Below are positions 17,487-38,149 of a stretch of DNA of 64,000 nucleotides, one piece after another. Below the pieces are notes generated by a model, which was given only the letters and a program-made list of their open reading frames with translations, did not search any database and was not told where the DNA came from. Source of the DNA: Desulfoluna limicola. GTDB taxonomy: Bacteria; Desulfobacterota; Desulfobacteria; Desulfobacterales; Desulfolunaceae. The DNA lies in the NCBI RefSeq assembly GCF_021654575.1, contig NZ_AP024488.1, forward strand, positions 1,364,001 to 1,428,000, written 5' to 3'. Every line of letters starts with the position of its first letter. Positions within the stretch are counted from its first letter, which is position 1. The translations under genes were made by a program, and so were the position numbers.

Positions 17487-18104
17487 ATGCGATATTACGG
17501 TGAAGAGGCGTTAGGACTCATAGAGACCACAGGGATGGTTCCGGCAATTTACGGAGCCGATCAGATGCTTAAGGCAGCCAACGTGGAGCTGATCTCATAC
17601 GAGAACATCGGATCCACCCTCGTGACTATTTTTGTAAAGGGCGATGTTGCCGCTGTTAAAGCGTCTGTTGAAGCCGGTGCAGCCGCAGCCAAAGAGATTG
17701 GCCCGCTGACCGCTCAGAATGTCATGCCGCGTCCCATCAGCGCTGTCGGAGACATTGTCTCTGTGCATGATGTGGATGCTCAGGTTGATGCAACTGAAGA
17801 TCTTCCCCGCTCCAAAGCCCTCGGGATGGTCGAAACCTTTGGTATTGTGTATGCCCTCGAAGCGGCAGATGCCATGGTCAAGGCGGCGGACGTGGATCTC
17901 CTCGGATACGAAAACACCGCGTCCGGGTACATTTCAATTCTGGTTTCAGGCGATGTCGGTGCTGTTCAGGCAGCCGTTGAAGCCGGTGTAAGTGCCGTCA
18001 AGGAGATGGGTGTTGATCCCCACAGCTCCTGCGTCATTCCCACGCCTCACCCCGCACTGTCCAAGATCACCAGTCAGTACGCCCTTGATAAGCTGCTGCC
18101 TTAA
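17487..18104 (+). CDS. Tandem BMC-domain shell protein
   Basis: Shell protein of 205 residues with two BMC domains in tandem, the first from EALGLIETTGMVPAIYGADQ (~7) and the second from ALGMVETFGIVYALEAADAM (~112). They are joined by an acidic linker rich in Asp and Val. Each domain is of the ordinary BMC-H sequence type rather than the PduT type: no pore Cys motif is seen in the first domain. Such proteins form pseudohexameric trimers. It is the first gene after the MerR-type promoter and opens the choline operon. Confidence 0.92.
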   Translation: MRYYGEEALGLIETTGMVPAIYGADQMLKAANVELISYENIGSTLVTIFVKGDVAAVKASVEAGAAAAKEIGPLTAQNVMPRPISAVGDIVSVHDVDAQVDATEDLPRSKALGMVETFGIVYALEAADAMVKAADVDLLGYENTASGYISILVSGDVGAVQAAVEAGVSAVKEMGVDPHSSCVIPTPHPALSKITSQYALDKLLP

Positions 18105-18178: not shown

Positions 18179-19678
18179 ATGACGATCATAGACAATGATT
18201 TGCTCTCCATCCAAGAAGCACGAATTCTTGCAGAGAATGCTTTTGAAGCACAGAAGAGATTGGCCACCTTTTCCCAGGAAAAGCTGGACGAGATCGTCGA
18301 GTGTGTGGCGGACGCCGCCCAGGAGCATGTTCAACGATTTGCCGTTTTGTCCCATGAGGAGACTGATTACGGCAAATGGCAGGACAAGTGCATCAAAAAC
18401 ACGTTTGTGTGTGGTGACGTTCGCAACCACTTAAAGGGCATGCGTTGTGTCGGCATTATCGGTGAGGATCCTCAAAAGCGTATGATGGACATCGGTGTGC
18501 CTGTCGGTGTTGTCGTCGCTTTGTGCCCGGCGACCAGCCCCGTTTCGACCACCATATACAAGACACTCATTGCCATAAAGTCAGGCAACGCCGTTGTGTT
18601 TTCACCCCATCCCAGGGCTCGTAAAACCATCGGCAAGGTCCTCGACATTCTCATTAATGCCGCTGAAGCCAAGGGATTGCCTGAAGGGTGTCTGACCTAT
18701 CTCCATACAGTGACTTCTGCCGGAACCAAGGAGTTGATGATGCACAAAGGGACATCCCTTATCATCAATACCGGGGTTCCGAGCATGCTCAAGCTGGCCT
18801 ACAAGGCCGGCAAGCCAGTGATCTACGGAGGCACCGGAAACGGGCCGGCTTTTATTGAGCGTACGGCAGACATCGCTCAGGCGGTGAAAGACATCATTGC
18901 CAGCAAAACCTTTGACAACGGAATTGCACCCTCGGCAGAACAGTCCATTGTTGTGGACGGTTGCATTGCCCAAGAGGTGAAGCGTGAGCTTAAGTCGAAC
19001 GGGGCGTATTTCATGACCGAAGAAGAATCGCAAACGTTTGCGACTCTTTTTTTCTGCCCCAACGGGAAGTTGAACCCGGGGATGGTCGGGGTCTCGGCCA
19101 AAACCCTTGCCTTAAGGGCAGGGTTTTCCGTACCGGACGATGTCACCGTATTGATTGCGGAACGAAAATACGTCTCCGACACAGACCCCTACGCAAAGGA
19201 AATGCTTTGCCCGGTTCTGGCCTACTACGTGGAAGACGACTGGATGCATGCCTGTGAAAAATGCATCGAGCTTCTGGTCACCGAAAGAAATGGGCACACT
19301 CTTGTTATCCACTCAAACGATCAAGACGTTATTTGCCAGTTTGCACTGAAAAAACCCGTAGGCCGTTTGCTGGTGAACACGCCGGCGACCTTCGGCGGCC
19401 TGGGGGCAACAACAAACCTGTTTCCGTCCATGACCCTGGGCAGTGGATCGGCAGGAGACGGCATCACCTCAGACAATGTGTCGCCTCTCAACCTGATCTA
19501 TGTCCGTAAAGTGGGCTATGGCGTCAGGAAAATCGATGCAATTGGCACCGACATCCCTCACGATGAGGCACCTTCCCTTGTGAATGCAACAAAAGGGGCG
19601 GGGGATAATGAATTGAATATGCAATCCTTCCAGCGTTTGCTTGATGAGGCCATCAAAACCATTGGTGGTTCCAAATAA
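18179..19678 (+). CDS. Aldehyde dehydrogenase homologue lacking the catalytic cysteine
   Basis: Member of the CoA-acylating aldehyde dehydrogenase family (EutE/PduP/AdhE N-domain type), 499 residues. The fold signatures are intact: CPATSPVSTTIYKTLIAIK, YGGTGNGPAFIERTADI, and a C-terminal FGGLGATTNLFPSMTLGSGS. However, the active-site loop reads TFDNGIAPSAEQ, with Pro251 where the second homologue at 24718 and active enzymes have Cys ([12 protein letters not shown]). The usual acyl-thioester reaction should therefore not occur. It may act as a structural or regulatory partner of the active enzyme. A C-terminal amphipathic helix (SFQRLLDEAIKTIGG) could be a compartment-targeting peptide. It stands between the shell gene and cutC. 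Confidence 0.88.
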   Translation: MTIIDNDLLSIQEARILAENAFEAQKRLATFSQEKLDEIVECVADAAQEHVQRFAVLSHEETDYGKWQDKCIKNTFVCGDVRNHLKGMRCVGIIGEDPQKRMMDIGVPVGVVVALCPATSPVSTTIYKTLIAIKSGNAVVFSPHPRARKTIGKVLDILINAAEAKGLPEGCLTYLHTVTSAGTKELMMHKGTSLIINTGVPSMLKLAYKAGKPVIYGGTGNGPAFIERTADIAQAVKDIIASKTFDNGIAPSAEQSIVVDGCIAQEVKRELKSNGAYFMTEEESQTFATLFFCPNGKLNPGMVGVSAKTLALRAGFSVPDDVTVLIAERKYVSDTDPYAKEMLCPVLAYYVEDDWMHACEKCIELLVTERNGHTLVIHSNDQDVICQFALKKPVGRLLVNTPATFGGLGATTNLFPSMTLGSGSAGDGITSDNVSPLNLIYVRKVGYGVRKIDAIGTDIPHDEAPSLVNATKGAGDNELNMQSFQRLLDEAIKTIGGSK

Positions 19679-19717: not shown

Positions 19718-22258
19718 TTGGATCTTCGAGATTTTTCAAATAAGCTTGCAGAAGCAACTAAAAACCTGACTCCGGAAGAGCGTGCATCTTTGAAGAAGAT
19801 GTTTGAAGGCATCTCTTCAGAGATTTCAGCAAATCCGTCTGCCGGCCCCACGGTTGTTTCACCCGTTGGCCCCGGCATTCCCGATGGCCCCACCGAGCGT
19901 CACGTGAAGCTGAAGGAAAAATTCCTGACGCACGTGCCCACCATCACCACTCACCGTGCGCGTGCCATCACCAAAATCGCCAAGGAAAACCCCGGTCTTC
20001 CCAAGGCGATCCTTCGCGGCAAGTGCTTCAAGTACTGCTGTGAGACCGCACCCCTGGTGATTCAGGACCACGAACTCATCGTCGGTTCTCCCTGTGGCGC
20101 TCCCCGCGCGGGCGCTTTCTCCCCCGATATCGCGTGGCGCTGGGTCAAGGACGAAATTGACACCATCGGCACCCGTGCCCAGGATCCCTTCTTCATCTCC
20201 GATGAAGACAAGAAGATCATGCGTGAAGAGCTGTTCCCCTTCTGGGAAGGACAGTCTGTGGACGAGTATTGCGAGCAGCAGTACCGCGAAGCAGGCATGT
20301 GGGAAATTTCCGGTGAGTCTTACGTCACCGATTGCTCCTACCACGCTGTAAACGGCGGTGGCGACTCCAACCCCGGCTACGACGTGATCCTGATGAAAAA
20401 GGGCATGCTCGACATTGTCAAGGAATCCCAGGCGAAACTTGACGAGTTGGACTACCTGAACCCCGATGACATGGACAAGATCTACTTCTACAAGTCCCTC
20501 ATCGACACCGCTGAAGGCGTGATGATCTACGCCAAGCGCCTCTCGGATTACGCATGTGAGCTGGCCGCCAAAGAGACCAACCCCCAGCGTAAAGCAGAAC
20601 TCGAGCGAATCTCTGCGGTCAACGCCCGCGTTCCCGCCCACAAGCCCGAGACCTACTGGGAAGCCCTTCAGGCTGTCTGGACTGTTGAGTCCCTTCTCGT
20701 TGTGGAAGAGAACCAGACCGGCATGTCCATCGGCCGCGTGGACCAGTACATGTACCCCTTCTACAAGGCGGACCTCGAAGCCGGTCGCATGACCGACTAC
20801 GAAGCCTTCGACCTCTCCGGTTGTATGCTTGTGAAGTGTTCCGAGATGATGTGGCTCACCAGCGAAGATGCCTCCAAGTTCTTTGCCGGCTACCAGCCCT
20901 TCGTCAACATGTGCGTGGGTGGTGTGACCCGTGACGGCCTCGACGCCACCAACGACCTCACCTACCTCCTGATGGACGCTGTTCGACACGTCAAGGTGTA
21001 CCAGCCCTCACTGGCCACCCGTGTTCACAACAAGTCTCCCCAGAAGTACCTGAAGAAGATTATCGACGTCATCCGTGCCGGCATGGGTTTCCCCGCCATC
21101 CACTTTGACGACGCTCACATCAAGATGATGCTGGCCAAGGGTTGCTCCATCGAAGACTCACGTGACTACTGCCTCATGGGTTGTGTTGAGCCCCAGAAGT
21201 CCGGTCGTCTTTACCAGTGGACCTCCACCGCTTACACCCAGTGGCCCATCTGTATCGAGATGGTGCTCAACCACGGTGTGCCCCTCTGGTATGAGAAGCA
21301 GGTGTGCCCCGACATGGGTCCCCTGGAGTCCTTCGACACCTATGAGAAGTTCGATGCGGCTGTCAAGGAGCTGATCAAGCACATCACCAAGTGGTCCTGC
21401 GTGGGTACCGTGATCTCCCAGCGTATCCACAGGCAGCTTGCGCCCAAGCCCCTCATGTCCATGATGTACGAAGGGTGCATGGAGTCCGGCCTTGACGTTT
21501 CTGCCGGCGGCGCCATGTACAACTTCGGTCCCGGTGTTGTCTGGAGTGGCCTGGCCACCCATGCCGACTCCATGGCGGCCATCAAGAAGCTGGTTTACGA
21601 TGACAAGAAATACACCCTGGCTCAGCTCAACGAAGCCCTGAAGGCCGAGTTCAAGGGATACGAGCAGGTGAAGGCTGATTGCCTTGCAGCTCCCAAGTAC
21701 GGCAACGATGATGACTACGTTGACCTTATCGTCAACGACCTCATCAACTACACCGAGCGTGAGCACCGCAAGTGCAAGACTCTCTACTCTGTATTGAGCC
21801 ACGGCACACTCTCCATCTCGAACAACACCCCCTTCGGTCAGCTCCTTGGCGCATCTGCCAACGGACGTGATGCGTGGATGCCCCTCTCAGACGGTATCAG
21901 CCCCACCCAGGGCGCCGACTGCAAAGGCCCCACCTCCATCATCAAGTCTGTTTCCAAGATGCCCACCGACAGCATGAACATCGGCATGGTTCACAACTTC
22001 AAGCTGATGAGCGGCCTGTTGGATACGCCCGAAGGTGAAGCAGGCATTATCACCCTGATCCGTACCGCAAGCATGATGGGCAACGGTGAGATGCAGTTCA
22101 ACTACCTTGACAACGAGACAATGCTCGATGCCCAGGTTCACCCTGAAAAGTACCGCGACCTGGTTGTCCGCGTTGCCGGGTACAGCGCCTTCTTTGTCGA
22201 GCTGTGCAAGGACGTTCAGGATGAGATCATCAGCCGGACCATGCTGACTGAGCTGTAA
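19718..22258 (+). CDS. cutC: Choline trimethylamine-lyase (glycyl radical enzyme)
   Basis: Glycyl radical enzyme that splits choline into trimethylamine and acetaldehyde. It has 846 residues, the length of the Desulfovibrio alaskensis enzyme, and every known catalytic residue falls at the same number: Tyr208, Asp216 ([10 protein letters not shown]), Phe395, Cys489 and Glu491 (GCVEP), Thr502, Tyr506 (WTSTAYTQW) and the radical Gly821 (RVAGYSAFF). The first ~40 residues before the core ([20 protein letters not shown]) are an amphipathic extension, likely the compartment-targeting peptide. Translation starts at a TTG preceded by AAGGGAGG. Its activase follows at 22314. Assignment is firm because the pocket residues match one by one. 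Confidence 0.97.
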
Positions 22259-22313
22259 TCAGGCATGATCCGAAGTTGAGTACCAGGTATGGATAAGTAG
22301 GGATTTGAGCACT

Positions 22314-23267
22314 ATGAGCAGCACAGGGGGCACCATGATTGAACGGAAAGCACGGATTTTCAACATACAGAAATACAACATGTATGATGGCCCGGGGGTC
22401 AGAACCCTGGTGTTCTTTAAAGGGTGTCCGTTGCGTTGCAAGTGGTGCTCAAATCCCGAAAGTCAAAAACGTCAATACCAGGTGATGTACAAGGCAAACC
22501 AGTGTATCAACTGCGGGGCCTGCGCTTCTGTGTGCCCCGTTGGGGTTCACAGGATGTCACCGGACACCGGGCTGCATGAGTTCGTCGAGGGCAGTGTCTG
22601 CATCGGCTGCCGCCGATGTGAAGACGCCTGCACCCCATCGGCCTTGTCCATCGTGGGTGAGATGAAAACCATTTCGGAACTCTACGACGTGGTGGATGAA
22701 GACCGCTCCTTCTATGAGATGTCCGGGGGCGGCGTGACGCTGGGAGGCGGTGAGGCGTTGATGCAGCCGGAAGCAGCAGCAAACCTGTTGATGGTCTGCA
22801 AGCAGAGAGGCATCAACACCGCCATCGAAACATGCGGGTATGCAAAGCCTGTAGAGGTGATGAAGGTCGCTGAATTCACGGATCTCTTTCTCTTTGACAT
22901 CAAGCACATGAATTCCGACCGCCATTATGAACTGACCGGGGTTCGCAACGAGTTGATTTTGAAGAACCTGAGAAACCTGCTTCAGAACCGGTACAACGTG
23001 AAGGTCAGGCTGCCGTTGCTGAAAAATGCCAATGACAGTGAAGAAGAAATTTCAGCGCTTATTGAATTTTTGACTCCCTACCGTGATTACAAGAATTTTA
23101 AAGGGATCGACTTGCTGCCCTACCACAAGATGGGTGTCAACAAGTACAAGCAGTTGGGCTGGGAGTATCCCATTGAAGGGGACCCGAGTTTAAGCGAAGA
23201 GGACCTGGACCGACTGGAAACTTGGATTAAGAAATACAACTTCCCGGTTTCAGTGATCAGGCACTGA
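22314..23267 (+). CDS. cutD: CutC activase, radical SAM
   Basis: Radical-SAM glycyl-radical-enzyme activase that installs the Gly radical on CutC. The SAM cluster motif is GCPLRCKWC (CxxxCxxC) near residue 37. Two extra ferredoxin-like cysteine sets follow: CINCGACASVCPVG (~65) and CIGCRRCEDACTP (~95). Then come the GGGEALMQ glycine-rich SAM-binding segment and DIKHMNS. I prefer the ATG at 22314, ten bases from AGGGA; TTG 22305 and ATG 22335 are alternatives. It is the only activase in the window, so it may also serve the second glycyl radical enzyme at 35735. Confidence 0.95.
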   Translation: MSSTGGTMIERKARIFNIQKYNMYDGPGVRTLVFFKGCPLRCKWCSNPESQKRQYQVMYKANQCINCGACASVCPVGVHRMSPDTGLHEFVEGSVCIGCRRCEDACTPSALSIVGEMKTISELYDVVDEDRSFYEMSGGGVTLGGGEALMQPEAAANLLMVCKQRGINTAIETCGYAKPVEVMKVAEFTDLFLFDIKHMNSDRHYELTGVRNELILKNLRNLLQNRYNVKVRLPLLKNANDSEEEISALIEFLTPYRDYKNFKGIDLLPYHKMGVNKYKQLGWEYPIEGDPSLSEEDLDRLETWIKKYNFPVSVIRH

Positions 23268-24717: not shown

Positions 24718-26160
24718 ATGGTAGATAAGGATTTGCTCTCAATCCAGGAGACCCGTGCACTGGTTCGAGCTGCACGCGCAGCCCAGCCCGCACTTGTAGA
24801 AGCCGGTCAGGAACGCGTGGACGCCCTTGTGGAGGCTATCGCCAAAGTAGGCGTTGAGATGGCTGAAGAACTGGCCAAAATGGCCAGCGAAGAGACAGGT
24901 TTCGGCAAGTGGCAGGACAAGAAACAGAAGAACATCCTCGCCTCTGAGAAACTGGTCAGCTACTACAAAGACACCAAGACCGTGGGGATCATCAACGAGG
25001 ACTCTGAAAAGAAAATCGTTGAAATTGCCACTCCCATGGGTGTTATTGCGGGTCTTATTCCCTCAACCAACCCCACGAGCACCACGCTCTACAAGGCCAT
25101 TATCTCCCTTAAGAGCGCCAACGCCATCGTGTTCAGCCCCCACCCCAGCGCGGTGAAGTGCATCACCGCCACTGTAAACATGATCAAGGGTGTCCTGAAG
25201 GCCATGGACTTCCCCGAAGATCTCGTGGGTGTCATCAGCGTTCCCACCCTTGAGGGTACCGATCAGCTGATGAAGATCGTCGACATGATCCTCGCCACCG
25301 GTGGCAACGCCATGGTCAAGGCGGCATACAGCTCCGGTACCCCCGCCCTCGGCGTGGGCTCCGGCAACGTGCCCGCCTTCATCGAGCGAAGCGCCGACGT
25401 GGATGTCGCGGTTCAGAAAATCCTCGCCTCCAAGACCTTCGACAACGGCACCGTCTGCGCTTCCGAGCAGGCCATCGTTACCGAAGCCTGCATCGCCGAC
25501 AAGGTCAAGGCCAGCGTCATCGCCCAGGGCGGTTACTTCCTGGAAGGTGAGAAGCTCGACAAGGTGAAGAAGGTCATGGAACGCCCCAACGGCTCCATGA
25601 ACCCCGCCATCGTTGGTCGTTGTGCAGCGGACATCGCAAAGGTCGCCGGCATCGAGATCCCCGCCGGCACCACCATGCTGCTCTGTGACGAGCCCGGCGT
25701 CGGCCCCAAATACCCCTTCTCCAAGGAGAAGCTCACCGCACTTCTCGGTTTCTATGTCGTCAACGACTGGCAGGAAGCGTGCGAGATCTGCTACAAGCTC
25801 CTTCACAACGGTGGCCTCGGTCACTCCATGGGCATCCACTCCAATAACGAAACCGTTATTCGTGAGTTCGCCCTGAAGAAGCCTGTGTCCCGTTTTCTGG
25901 TGAACACCCCCACCACCCAGGGTGCTGTGGGCATCACCACCAACCTGTCTCCCTCCTTCACCCTCGGGTGCGGTACCGTGGGCGGCAGCGCTACCTCTGA
26001 GAACGTTGGTCCCCACCACCTCTTCAACATTCGTCGCATGGCCTACGGCCTCGACGATGCGGCTGCCACCACCTGTGCGGCACCCGCTGAGAGCGTCGAC
26101 GTTCAGGCTGTGACCAACATGATCATGGAACAGCTCAAGAAGATGAGCGGAACCGTCTAA
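24718..26160 (+). CDS. CoA-acylating acetaldehyde dehydrogenase
   Basis: Active-type aldehyde dehydrogenase of 480 residues (EutE/CutF-like) that should convert acetaldehyde and CoA to acetyl-CoA with NAD reduction. The catalytic Cys247 is in [12 protein letters not shown]. The cofactor-binding pattern [18 protein letters not shown] and the C-terminal [19 protein letters not shown] are present. A C-terminal linker leads to an amphipathic helix ([17 protein letters not shown]), the expected encapsulation peptide. It pairs with PduL (27366) to give acetyl phosphate. The homologue at 18179 lacks the Cys, so this is probably the working enzyme for both the choline and ethanolamine branches. Confidence 0.93.
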
Positions 26161-27365: not shown

Positions 27366-28046
27366 ATGGATCAGACAATTGTTGAAGATATTATAAAAAA
27401 GGTCATGGACCAGATGGGAGCTTCAGAAGCAGCCCCTGCGACGAGCACAGCGCAGAAGGCGACTTGTGATGAGTCCATTCCCGTGGAACTCTCCGGTCGC
27501 CATGTCCACCTCTGCGAAGAGGACATTCAGGAGCTCTTCGGCGCGCCCCTGAACTACGTCAAAGAACTCTCGCAGCCCGGTCAGTACCTCTGCAAAGAGC
27601 GGGTTCGTCTCATCGGTCCCACAGGCGTCATCGACAACGTGGCGGTCCTCGGTCCTGCACGACCCAAATCCCAGGTTGAGCTCTCCCTCACCGACGCTCG
27701 CATCCTGGGTGTGAAGGCTCCGGTTCGACAGTCCGGTGACGTGGCCGGTACCCCCGGTATCGTTCTCACCTCCGGAACCGGCCTTGCCGGTCTGCAGGAG
27801 GGCGTCATCGTTGCTGCCCGTCACATCCACATGTCGCCTGCAGACGCCGCCAGGTATGGCGTTTCCGACAACCAGAAAGTGCATGTCTATATGGATGGCG
27901 AGCGACCCGCTGTATTTAAGGACGTCATCGTCCGGGTCCACAAGGATTTCAGCCTGGCCATGCATATTGACTTTGATGAAGCCAACAGCTGTGGCCTGGG
28001 CAGGAACGCCAAGGGCAAGATTGTGGGCGTAACCCAGGAGGCGTAA
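27366..28046 (+). CDS. pduL: Phosphate propanoyl/acetyltransferase PduL
   Basis: Microcompartment phosphotransacylase of 226 residues that turns acetyl-CoA into acetyl phosphate and recycles CoA inside the compartment. The first ~20 residues (MDQTIVEDIIKKVMDQMG) are an encapsulation helix. Two beta-barrel halves carry the zinc-binding motifs SGRHVHLCEED (His46, His48) and ARHIHMSPADA (about residue 154). It replaces EutD of the classical eut operon. It is 8 bases downstream of eutT and is followed almost directly by eutJ. Confidence 0.95.
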   Translation: MDQTIVEDIIKKVMDQMGASEAAPATSTAQKATCDESIPVELSGRHVHLCEEDIQELFGAPLNYVKELSQPGQYLCKERVRLIGPTGVIDNVAVLGPARPKSQVELSLTDARILGVKAPVRQSGDVAGTPGIVLTSGTGLAGLQEGVIVAARHIHMSPADAARYGVSDNQKVHVYMDGERPAVFKDVIVRVHKDFSLAMHIDFDEANSCGLGRNAKGKIVGVTQEA

Positions 28047-31776: not shown

Positions 31777-32886
31777 TTGACGCAATTTAACGGACGCACC
31801 AAAATTTGCTACGGCGAAAACGCCATCAACAACCTGGAGAAGCTGACGGGGAAGCACGCCTTTATCGTCACCGATCCCTTTATGGTGAAGATGGGGTTTA
31901 CCGACCGGGTCATCAGCAGCCTGGAGCGGGCGAACATCACCCAGAGCGTCTTTGACAAGGTGGAGCCTGACCCTTCCCTTGAGACCGTTCAGAAGGGGAC
32001 CGTGAAGCTCCTGGCCGACGGGGCGGATCTGATCATCGCCCTGGGAGGTGGCTCTGCCATCGACGCGGCCAAGGCGATGATGTACTTCGCCTACAAAGCG
32101 GATCCATCCAAGGGCAAGCCCCAGCTGGTGGTGATTCCCACCACCAGCGGCACCGGGTCCGAAGTGACCGCCGTCACCGTGGTCACCGACACCGCCCAGC
32201 AGATGAAGATTCCCCTCATCGACGACATGATTGTTCCCGACATGGCGGTACTGGACGCGCGTTTTACCCGCTCCGTGCCACCCTCGGTGACTGCCGCCAC
32301 CGGCATGGATGTCCTGACCCACGCCCTGGAGGCCTATGTCTCCACCCCGGCCAACGCCTTCACCGATCTCTATGCGGTGCATGCCATCAAGTACGTCTTC
32401 CGGTACCTTTTGAGGTGCTACAGAAACGGAGACGACATGGAGGCTCGCCAGAACATGCTTCTGGCCTCCTGCATGGCGGGCATGGCGTTTAACAACAGCG
32501 GCCTCGGCGTGGCCCACAGCGTGGCCCACACCCTGGGCGGGCTTTTCCACATTCCGCATGGCAAGGCCAACGCCGTGCTGCTTCCCTACGTCATTCGCTT
32601 CAACAGCTTTGACGTCCGGGACCGGTACCGCACCATCGCTCAAAAGCTTCGTCTCCCTTCCGAGACCGTGGAGCAGGGCAATGAAAGCCTTATCGAAGCG
32701 GTGCGCTGGCTCAACGTTCAGATGGGCATCCCCAACAGGATCAGTGATCTGGGGATCAAGGAAGATGAGTTCCATACCTCCCTTGAAACCATGTCCAAAC
32801 ACGCCCTGGACGACATGTGCACCAAAACCAACCCGAGACGCCCCTCCCAGAGGGACATCCGGCAGTTGCTGCGCAAGGCGTATTAA
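31777..32886 (+). CDS. pduQ: Iron-dependent alcohol dehydrogenase, copy B (complete)
   Basis: Complete 369-residue iron alcohol dehydrogenase of the PduQ/EutG type, converting acetaldehyde to ethanol. It starts at TTG, eight bases after AGGAGGGT. N-terminal MTQFNGRTKICYGENAI is followed by ALGGGSAIDAAKA, TTSGTGSEVTAVTVVTDT, and metal ligands in TGMDVLTHALEA, GVAHSVAH and HIPHGKANAVLLP. It matches copy A almost throughout, with scattered substitutions mainly near the C-terminus (QKLRLPS for KKLELPC; HTSLETMSKHALDDMC for QTALETMARHAMDDAC), showing the copies have diverged since duplication. PduS and PduT follow. Confidence 0.95.
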   Translation: MTQFNGRTKICYGENAINNLEKLTGKHAFIVTDPFMVKMGFTDRVISSLERANITQSVFDKVEPDPSLETVQKGTVKLLADGADLIIALGGGSAIDAAKAMMYFAYKADPSKGKPQLVVIPTTSGTGSEVTAVTVVTDTAQQMKIPLIDDMIVPDMAVLDARFTRSVPPSVTAATGMDVLTHALEAYVSTPANAFTDLYAVHAIKYVFRYLLRCYRNGDDMEARQNMLLASCMAGMAFNNSGLGVAHSVAHTLGGLFHIPHGKANAVLLPYVIRFNSFDVRDRYRTIAQKLRLPSETVEQGNESLIEAVRWLNVQMGIPNRISDLGIKEDEFHTSLETMSKHALDDMCTKTNPRRPSQRDIRQLLRKAY

Positions 32887-35734: not shown

Positions 35735-38149
35735 ATGGAAACAGCCACAGAAGTTCCCGCAGGTGCGAAACGTAAGAAGCCCCAGCTCCCCGGGCGTATT
35801 CAGAGGCTCAAGGACGCCTACCTGAAAATAAAACCGAGCATCACCATCGGTCGAGCCCTGGCTTTTACGGACGTCGCAAAGCAACACCCCGAACTGCCGA
35901 ACAATCTGCGTCGGGCCATGGGTTTTAAAAAAGCCTGCGAAACCGCACCCCTTCTGATTCAGAAAGATGAACTCATTGTCGGCCACCCCTGTGGCAAGCC
36001 CCGCGCCGGATCTTTTTCTCCGGACACCGCCTGGAAATGGGTACGCGATGAGCTGGACACCATCGGCACCCGTCCCCAGGATCCTTACGTGATCAGCGAA
36101 GAGGACAAGAAGGTCCTGCGCGAAGAGATTTTCCCCTTTTGGGAAGGCAAGTCCCTGGATGAAGCCTGCGAGGCGGCGTTCCGCAAAGAGGGCCTGTGGG
36201 AATTCTCTGCCGAGGCCTGCATCAGTGATCTGACCTACCATCATACCAGCGGTGGCGGTGACACCAGCCCCGGTTACGATATCATTCTGTTCACCAAGGG
36301 CATTGGTGGCATCAAGGCAGAGGCCGAAGAGAAACTGGCCGAGCTGTCCATGGATGCTGCTGAAAACATCGATAAGCTCTCCTTCTATGAGGCCGCCATT
36401 CAGACCTGCGAAGGCATTCTCATCTACGCCAATCGTCTCTCCGCATACGCAAAAGAGCTGGCCGAGAAAGAACAGGACACCAAGCGCAAGGCAGAGCTGT
36501 TAAAGATTGCCGAAGTCAACGCCCGCGTTCCGGCCAATCCCCCCGAGACGTTCCAGGAAGCGCTTCAGGCTATCTGGACCATTCAGTCTCTGTTTTTGAT
36601 GGAAGAAAATCAGTGCAGCACATCGTTGGGACGCTTTGACCAGTATGTCTACCCCTGCTTCGAATCCGATGTGAAGGCAGGACGCCTCGATGAAGCCCAG
36701 GCCTTTGAGCTGATGGGCTGCTTCATTATCAAATGCTCCGAGATGATCTGGTACACCCCTGAAGGGACCGCCACCTATTTTGCCGGGTACATGCCCTTCA
36801 TCAACCTGTGCGTGGGTGGCCAGAAGCGTGAAGGCGGTGACGGCACCAACGATCTTACCTACCTTGTGATGGACGCTGTCCGTAAGGTGGGGGTGTATCA
36901 GCCCTCCCTTGCCTGCCGTATTCACAACCAGTCCCCCCAAAAGTACCTGAAGAAGATCGTGGACGTGGTCAAGGCAGGTTACGGCATGCCCGCGTGCCAC
37001 TTCGACGACGCGCACATCAAGATGATGCTGAGAAAGGGCTTTGATTTTGAAGATGCCCGCGATTACTGCCTCATGGGTTGTGTTGAACCTCAGAAATCAG
37101 GCCGGATTCATCAGTGGACTGCGGGCGGGTTTACCCAGTGGCCGGTGGCCATCGAATTTGTGTTCAACCGCGGCGTGATGAAGTCGTACGAGGGAAGGCA
37201 GGGGCTTGATACAGGTGAACTGGATCAGTTCACCACCTATGAGCAGTTCGATGCCGCTGTCAAAAAGCAGATTGATTACATCCTGGAGCTGACGGCGAAG
37301 GGGACGGTCATCAACCAGAAGCTGGTTCGAGACATGGCGCCCACACCTTACATGTCCCTGTTTGTCGATGGCTGCATGCAGAACGGGAAAGACGTTACTG
37401 CAGGTGGCGCCGTTCTCTATGAAGGGCCGGGCACCATCTTTGCCGGTCTGGGCACCTACGCCGACAGCATGGCTGCCATCAAAAAACTCGTCTTTGACGA
37501 GAAAAAATACACCCTTGCCGAGTTGAAAAGCGCCCTCGACGCGAACTGGGAAGGCTTCGAAGAGATGCGGCGGGACTGCCTTGGTGCACCCAAGTTCGGG
37601 AACGACGACGACTATGCCGACATGATCACCAAGGACATCGTCGATTACACCGAAAAAACCATCAATCAGCACAAGTCCCTCTACGCCCGGATGATTCACG
37701 GGACCTTGTCCCAGTCCTTCAACACCCCCCTTGGCGAGATGATCGATGCCACCCCCAACGGGCGGTTGGCCGGTACGCCCCTGTCTGACGGGATGAGCCC
37801 CTCCCAAGGTGCCGACAAGAAGGGGCCCACGGCCATCATCAAGTCGGTCAGCAAGCTCAATGTTGAATCCATGAGCCTCGGGATGTCTCACAACTTCAAG
37901 TTGATGGAAGGCTCCCTGGAAACCCCTGAAGGTGAGGCCGGTTTGATTGCTCTCCTTCGAACGGCGTCCATGCTCGGCAATGCCCAGATGCAGTTTAACT
38001 ACATCGACAACGAAACCCTGAAGCAGGCGCAGAAGAACCCGGAAGAGTATCGGGATCTCATCATGCGCGTGGCAGGGTACAGCGCCTTCTTCGTCGAGCT
38101 GTGCAAAGAAGTGCAGGATGAAATCATCAGCCGTACCATGCTGGATTAA
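35735..38149 (+). CDS. CutC-like glycyl radical enzyme with altered pocket
   Basis: Second glycyl radical enzyme, 804 residues. Aligning it to CutC with an offset of 40 keeps Tyr168, Asp176 ([11 protein letters not shown]), Phe355, Cys449 and Glu451 (GCVEP), Thr462 and radical Gly781 (RVAGYSAFF). CutC Tyr506, which contacts the substrate, is Phe466 here, and the loop reads WTAGGFTQW instead of WTSTAYTQW. It also lacks the ~40-residue N-terminal extension of CutC, so targeting to the compartment is doubtful. It follows the second Q-S-T module and a structured element, and has the ribosome site AGAGGAG. No separate activase is nearby; CutD (22314) could serve it. Substrate: choline or a related quaternary amine is possible, but I leave it open. 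Confidence 0.9.

Follow-up and report, generated by a model that had tools for sequence, protein, structure and literature searches.

The window, that is, the whole stretch of 64,000 nucleotides from Desulfoluna limicola contig NZ_AP024488.1 that was analysed, carries a type I (GRM1) choline-utilization microcompartment locus, with shell genes, a short CutC, CutD, a phosphotransacylase (PTAC), EutN, EutQ, and a PduV-type protein. Choline microcompartments make trimethylamine, the precursor of TMAO. Within this locus, an uninterrupted open reading frame at 18179–19678 on the forward strand translates into a 499-residue aldehyde dehydrogenase (AldDH) homologue, referred to here as CutB, a name already in use (PMC6620236). 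The features of the locus, in window coordinates, are as follows:

17487–18104, + strand: BMC-T shell protein with two BMC domains, the gene preceding cutB
18179–19678, + strand: CutB, acylating aldehyde dehydrogenase homologue of 499 residues, almost certainly catalytically dead
18536–18538, + strand: CutB codon 120, Ser replacing the oxyanion-hole Asn (role of N138 from PMC4762007)
18776–18829, + strand: CutB codons 200–217, remodelled cofactor-loop region (ATGG to NTGV; GVGxGN to YGGTGN)
18929–18931, + strand: CutB codon 251, CCC, giving Pro where the catalytic Cys would stand (85 CutB-type and 77 Cys-type sequences aligned)
19598–19675, + strand: predicted C-terminal helix of CutB (474–496 in the model), encapsulation-peptide-like
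19718–22258, + strand: CutC choline trimethylamine-lyase, short type I form, 846 residues (TIGR04394, 1647 bits)
22305–23267, + strand: CutD, radical SAM enzyme activating CutC (TIGR04395, 562 bits)
23344: EutQ-like gene
24051: shell gene
24718–26160, + strand: CutF, active-type acylating aldehyde dehydrogenase with Cys, 480 residues (TIGR02518, 641 bits)
26188: shell gene
26599: adenosyltransferase-like gene
27366–28046, + strand: PduL-like phosphotransacylase (PF06130)
29531: EutN
29810 and 30605: shell genes
31309: EutQ
31777–32886, + strand: iron-containing alcohol dehydrogenase
33071: RnfC/PduS-like gene
34825: shell gene
35735–38149, + strand: second glycyl radical enzyme
38650: shell gene
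39111: PduV/EutP
39599: ANTAR regulator

As the preliminary description had it, cutB is the second gene of the choline operon, in the run shell-cutB-cutC, and a second AldDH, which bears the Cys, is present in the same locus (CutF, 24718–26160). The second glycyl radical enzyme (35735–38149, +) is a CutC-family protein of 804 residues, 60% identical to CutC, which scores 1395 bits against TIGR04394 (cut-off 1050) and keeps the glycyl loop and the GCVEP motif intact; TAGGFTQ stands in place of the TSTAYTQ of CutC, and its substrate may differ from that of CutC. It lacks a separate CutB and is 68% identical to the type II CutC of E. coli, the figure for the first CutC (19718) being 65%. Moreover, a 90-kb stretch on contig 1 of this genome (G000) holds three Cys-type acetaldehyde dehydrogenases that are closely related to one another, at 1356826, 1388748 (24718 of the window), and 1446075, the copy at 1356826 being 93% identical to the window CutF, which suggests adjacent microcompartment loci or recent duplication.

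Codon 251 of cutB (18929–18931, +) is CCC and encodes Pro, within KTFDNGIAPSAEQS, and this residue aligns with the catalytic Cys of the paralogue CutF (TVCASEQ), which bears out the replacement reported in the preliminary description. Relatives were sought across 84,980 species genomes, with search patterns taken from parts of the protein other than the active-site loop, and 80 loci with a close relative were returned, in Desulfobacterota, Bacillota, and a few Gammaproteobacteria; the closest relatives of the window protein are those of Desulfoluna (84–87% identity). Among the 85 aligned CutB-type sequences, some of them near-identical (the 80 scan loci, the window protein, and four more), site 251 is Ser in 50, Pro in 30, Ala in three, Thr in two, and Cys in none, and Cys occupies this site in all 77 aligned Cys-type relatives (72 plus five of type II). 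The loss of the Cys is thus conserved in the homologues of other cut loci. The codon is NCN in all 80 loci, and the Ser codons are invariably TCN (50/50) and never AGY, which is what a single TGY-to-TCY step would predict. On the tree, at least eight changes among Ser, Pro, Ala, and Thr take place at this site and none to Cys; a TCT or TCC codon is one step from a Cys codon, yet no reversion to Cys appears. Such a pattern suggests a single ancestral TGY-to-TCY loss, which would have been followed by drift among NCN codons. Pro has no special standing at this site and is simply the state of some lineages, as Ser, Ala, and Thr are of others.

For the other catalytic positions, the reference was the set of Cphy1178, namely C269, H387, E357, and the oxyanion N138 (PMC4762007), and the assignment of the catalytic His in CutB rests on this H387 together with an aligned GH[ST] motif; no paper with AdhE catalytic residue numbering was found in the literature search. 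The oxyanion-hole Asn position corresponds to codon 120, which is Ser in the window protein and in 80 of the 85 CutB-type sequences, and Asn in all 77 Cys-type enzymes. The ATGG loop has become xTGV in CutB (NTGV in the window), with Val for Gly200 in 81/85, GVGxGN has become YGGTGN, with Tyr for Gly216 in 82/85, and TLGCG has become TLGSG, the change of Cys422 to Ser being near-fixed. Glu341 is invariant (85/85), His373 is kept in 75 of 84 members, with Gln in eight, and Asn400 is mostly retained. Cys90 (codon 90, 18446–18448), where the Cys enzymes have Thr, is found in 83 of the 85 CutB sequences; it is replaced by Gln in the divergent CutB of genome G929 and by Tyr in another member. The G929 protein, 28% identical to that of the window, carries Pro at 251 and has Leu and Gln in place of the oxyanion Asn and the His, respectively, and its ATGG and GGTGNGP loops are both destroyed; it is still encoded upstream of cutC and keeps the C-terminal tail. 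To judge from these residues, cofactor chemistry seems hard to imagine for this protein, whereas a structural role does not.

The single-chain AlphaFold model of CutB has a mean pLDDT of 86, finds its best PDB match in 3k9d (TM 0.93–0.94 by target length), and shows a low-confidence linker followed by a C-terminal helix (474–496) that resembles encapsulation peptides; similar tails are present in almost all CutB members. The model of CutF (24718–26160) has a lower confidence (pLDDT 79). Against TIGR02518, the acetylating acetaldehyde dehydrogenase family, CutF scores 641 bits, above the cut-off of 620.1, and CutB 563.2 bits, below it, the Cys and oxyanion Asn required by this family being replaced in CutB by Pro251 and Ser120. 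The earlier statement of an otherwise intact fold is correct for the fold as a whole, but not for the active site, since the oxyanion Asn and cofactor-loop residues have been lost. With such an active site, CutB almost certainly lacks acylating dehydrogenase activity.

The gene appears functional rather than decaying, given its low dN/dS (0.04–0.16 in 17 pairs, pairwise Nei–Gojobori), usually somewhat higher than that of cutC and far below 1; this purifying selection agrees with the earlier proposal that a non-catalytic form is being kept. In all 77 loci with cutC in view, cutC comes directly after cutB, at a distance of at most 191 bases save in two loci with about 1.25 kb, and a shell gene lies upstream of cutB in 78 of 78 loci. 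The two spaced loci, L075 and L077, belong to Candidatus Pseudoscilispira and have Thr at site 251. Locus L063, from a Peptostreptococcaceae MAG, has an extra CutC-like gene at about 2053 (+), some 5 kb upstream of cutB.

The linkage extends to genome samples. CutB is present in all eight Clostridia genomes with CutC and in six of the seven genomes above the CutC cut-off in the sample of the window's phylum, the threshold applied revealing no related aldehyde dehydrogenase in the seventh (G014). Within the Enterobacterales sample, CutB occurs where a short CutC and a microcompartment aldehyde dehydrogenase are found together (G419, G537), and a CutC of 1136–1153 residues (G499, G658, G716, and the second G419 locus) is accompanied by the Cys enzyme only, as is the 1128-residue CutC of E. 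coli; no microcompartment aldehyde dehydrogenase lies next to cutC in G442 and G546, which have a short CutC. Photobacterium proteolyticum (G419) carries both a type I locus (CutC of 847 residues and CutB) and a type II locus (CutC of 1137 residues and the Cys enzyme), and its cut loci, at C83:12357–16417 and C48:38795–45416, offer a natural side-by-side comparison. A Cys-type enzyme is found alongside CutB in 22 of the 24 extra searchable genomes, the exceptions (G400 and G409) both being small assemblies; CutB loci that seem to lack CutF are thus mostly an artefact of limited flanks.

In a maximum-likelihood tree rooted on AdhE, CutB is monophyletic (100/100), the window protein falling in one clade with the other Cys-less AldDHs encoded upstream of cutC. 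The sister group of CutB is formed by the type II Cys aldehyde dehydrogenases (100/98), which are also encoded upstream of cutC, and 22 alignment positions are common to both and rare elsewhere. A topology with all other non-AdhE enzymes grouped against CutB is rejected, modestly, with a p-AU of 0.035; the sister relation to type II comes with the caveat of a long CutB branch (1.13). Type I CutF, which is about 42% identical to CutB, is divided in the free tree between a Firmicutes clade and a Desulfobacterota clade (98/98), suggesting that it may have had several origins, although a single type I CutF clade is not rejected (p-AU 0.12).

The replacement of the Cys is not a new observation, since the window gene belongs to the group described by Axen, Erbilgin and Kerfeld in 2014, whose passages on the GRM1 choline loci state that those with two AldDHs always have one with Ser or Pro for the Cys and propose, by analogy, a scaffold or regulator role for this defunct AldDH (PMC4207490). 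Like the enzyme of those passages, the window CutB is the second AldDH of a type I locus with the Cys replaced; in the wider CutB set, Ala and Thr at this site and the loss of the oxyanion Asn are found in addition. The single clade, the placement between shell gene and cutC, the C-terminal helix, and the kinship with type II are also added here, and the phylogenetic parts may already be contained in Zarzycki 2015 or Martinez-del Campo 2015. The literature search found no interaction, localisation, or deletion report for any CutB, nor any experimental work addressing the reason for a dead aldehyde dehydrogenase in type I organelles, which was posed as a question in 2014.

The closest system with experimental data is the GRM2 of Klebsiella, where CutF shifts CutC to larger assemblies (Kalnins 2020, PMC6971018). 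This association requires the N-terminal extension of CutC, and CutF has been proposed to act as a multivalent cross-linker, with the authors' caveat that encapsulation with CutF present is uncertain (PMC6971018). Type II CutF (Klebsiella, E. coli) resembles CutB in its position upstream of cutC, its GGxGNGPAF motif, and, according to Kalnins et al. (PMC6971018), an encapsulation-like extension at the C-terminus. However, it has the catalytic Cys, the Asn, ATGG, and TLGCG, and its partner CutC has an N-terminal extension of 345–350 residues, whereas the window CutC is the short form; with Pro251 and a short CutC, the window CutB is not a type II CutF. Type I CutF (TIGR02518 family) shares with CutB the fold, the locus, and a C-terminal helix, and differs from it in having a complete catalytic set. 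Moreover, the degenerate, CutC-like N-terminal extension of type II CutC is, as CutB would be, a non-catalytic enzyme-derived module of the organelle core, but the extension derives from a glycyl radical enzyme and is fused to CutC, whereas CutB derives from an AldDH and is separate.

The best explanation seems to be that type I choline-utilization microcompartments have in CutB a conserved pseudoenzyme, and gene order, the C-terminal helix, and kinship with Klebsiella CutF make structural scaffolding tied to CutC its probable role. The ancestral cut aldehyde dehydrogenase would have performed two jobs, one being the oxidation of acetaldehyde and the other the cross-linking of CutC into the core of the organelle. 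A separate enzyme, CutF, could then have taken over the chemistry in type I loci, while CutB would have kept only the structural job, as an oligomer bridging CutC and, via its C-terminal helix, the shell. Since type I CutC does not have the N-terminal extension with which Klebsiella CutF partners, the CutB interface cannot simply be the same. The invariant Glu341 and the mostly kept His373 and Asn400 speak against a scaffold, since ligand binding could have been retained.

CutB might instead serve as a regulatory subunit of active CutF, modulating it within mixed oligomers, although this seems unlikely. Inactive paralogues tune active partners in other pseudoenzyme pairs. The acylating aldehyde dehydrogenase fold is common to CutB and CutF, tetrameric and larger forms of a Klebsiella CutF are seen on elution (PMC6971018), and nearly every genome checked has a Cys-type enzyme alongside CutB; nevertheless, the two proteins are only about 42% identical, and CutB forms one clade while CutF is split, so that CutB appears to follow cutC and not one CutF lineage, an argument weakened by the single CutF clade not being rejected. 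Even less probable is a protein that binds NAD, CoA, acetaldehyde, or acetyl-CoA and so serves the organelle as a sensor, store, or sink: the predicted fold is present overall and Glu341 and, mostly, His373 are retained, but Val for Gly200 and Tyr for Gly216 alter conserved positions of the cofactor loops in nearly all members, both loops are lost in the G929 protein, and the Pro and Ala forms have no nucleophile at 251 for covalent trapping.

Activity through another nucleophile, such as Ser251 or Cys90, is very improbable. In its favour, site 251 is most often Ser, and Cys90 is nearly fixed in CutB where the Cys enzymes have Thr; against it, Pro and Ala members lie within the same clade, Cys90 is replaced in G929 and in another member, and the oxyanion Asn is lost in most. 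Trapping of acetaldehyde by another Cys was rejected on similar grounds, as Cys90 is nearly fixed in CutB but absent in G929. Finally, a sequencing error at 18929–18931, a caveat of the preliminary description, or a decaying pseudogene has nothing in its favour beyond the unusual residue and a negligible probability: CCC is two substitutions away from TGC or TGT, making a point error unlikely, the Cys loss recurs in three phyla, and dN/dS is low. Thus, of the roles first proposed for the protein, a structural or regulatory one remains the best reading, whereas acetaldehyde trapping is unlikely, since the Pro and Ala forms offer no nucleophile and the CutB-specific Cys90 is not invariant. The phylogenetic and residue evidence favours a CutC-linked structural pseudoenzyme over trapping.

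If CutB is such a structural pseudoenzyme, type I and type II organelles might perhaps use different enzyme-derived non-catalytic core modules, namely CutB, derived from a type II-like active enzyme and acting as a CutC-linked core organiser that gave up its catalytic half to an interchangeable CutF, versus the fused CutC-like extension. The residue pattern, the linkage to cutC, and a sister enzyme whose influence on core assembly has been measured lead to the specific question of whether CutB is needed for the encapsulation of CutC. If so, CutB would be a pseudoenzyme that organises a bacterial organelle and would provide a handle for engineering or blocking that organelle.
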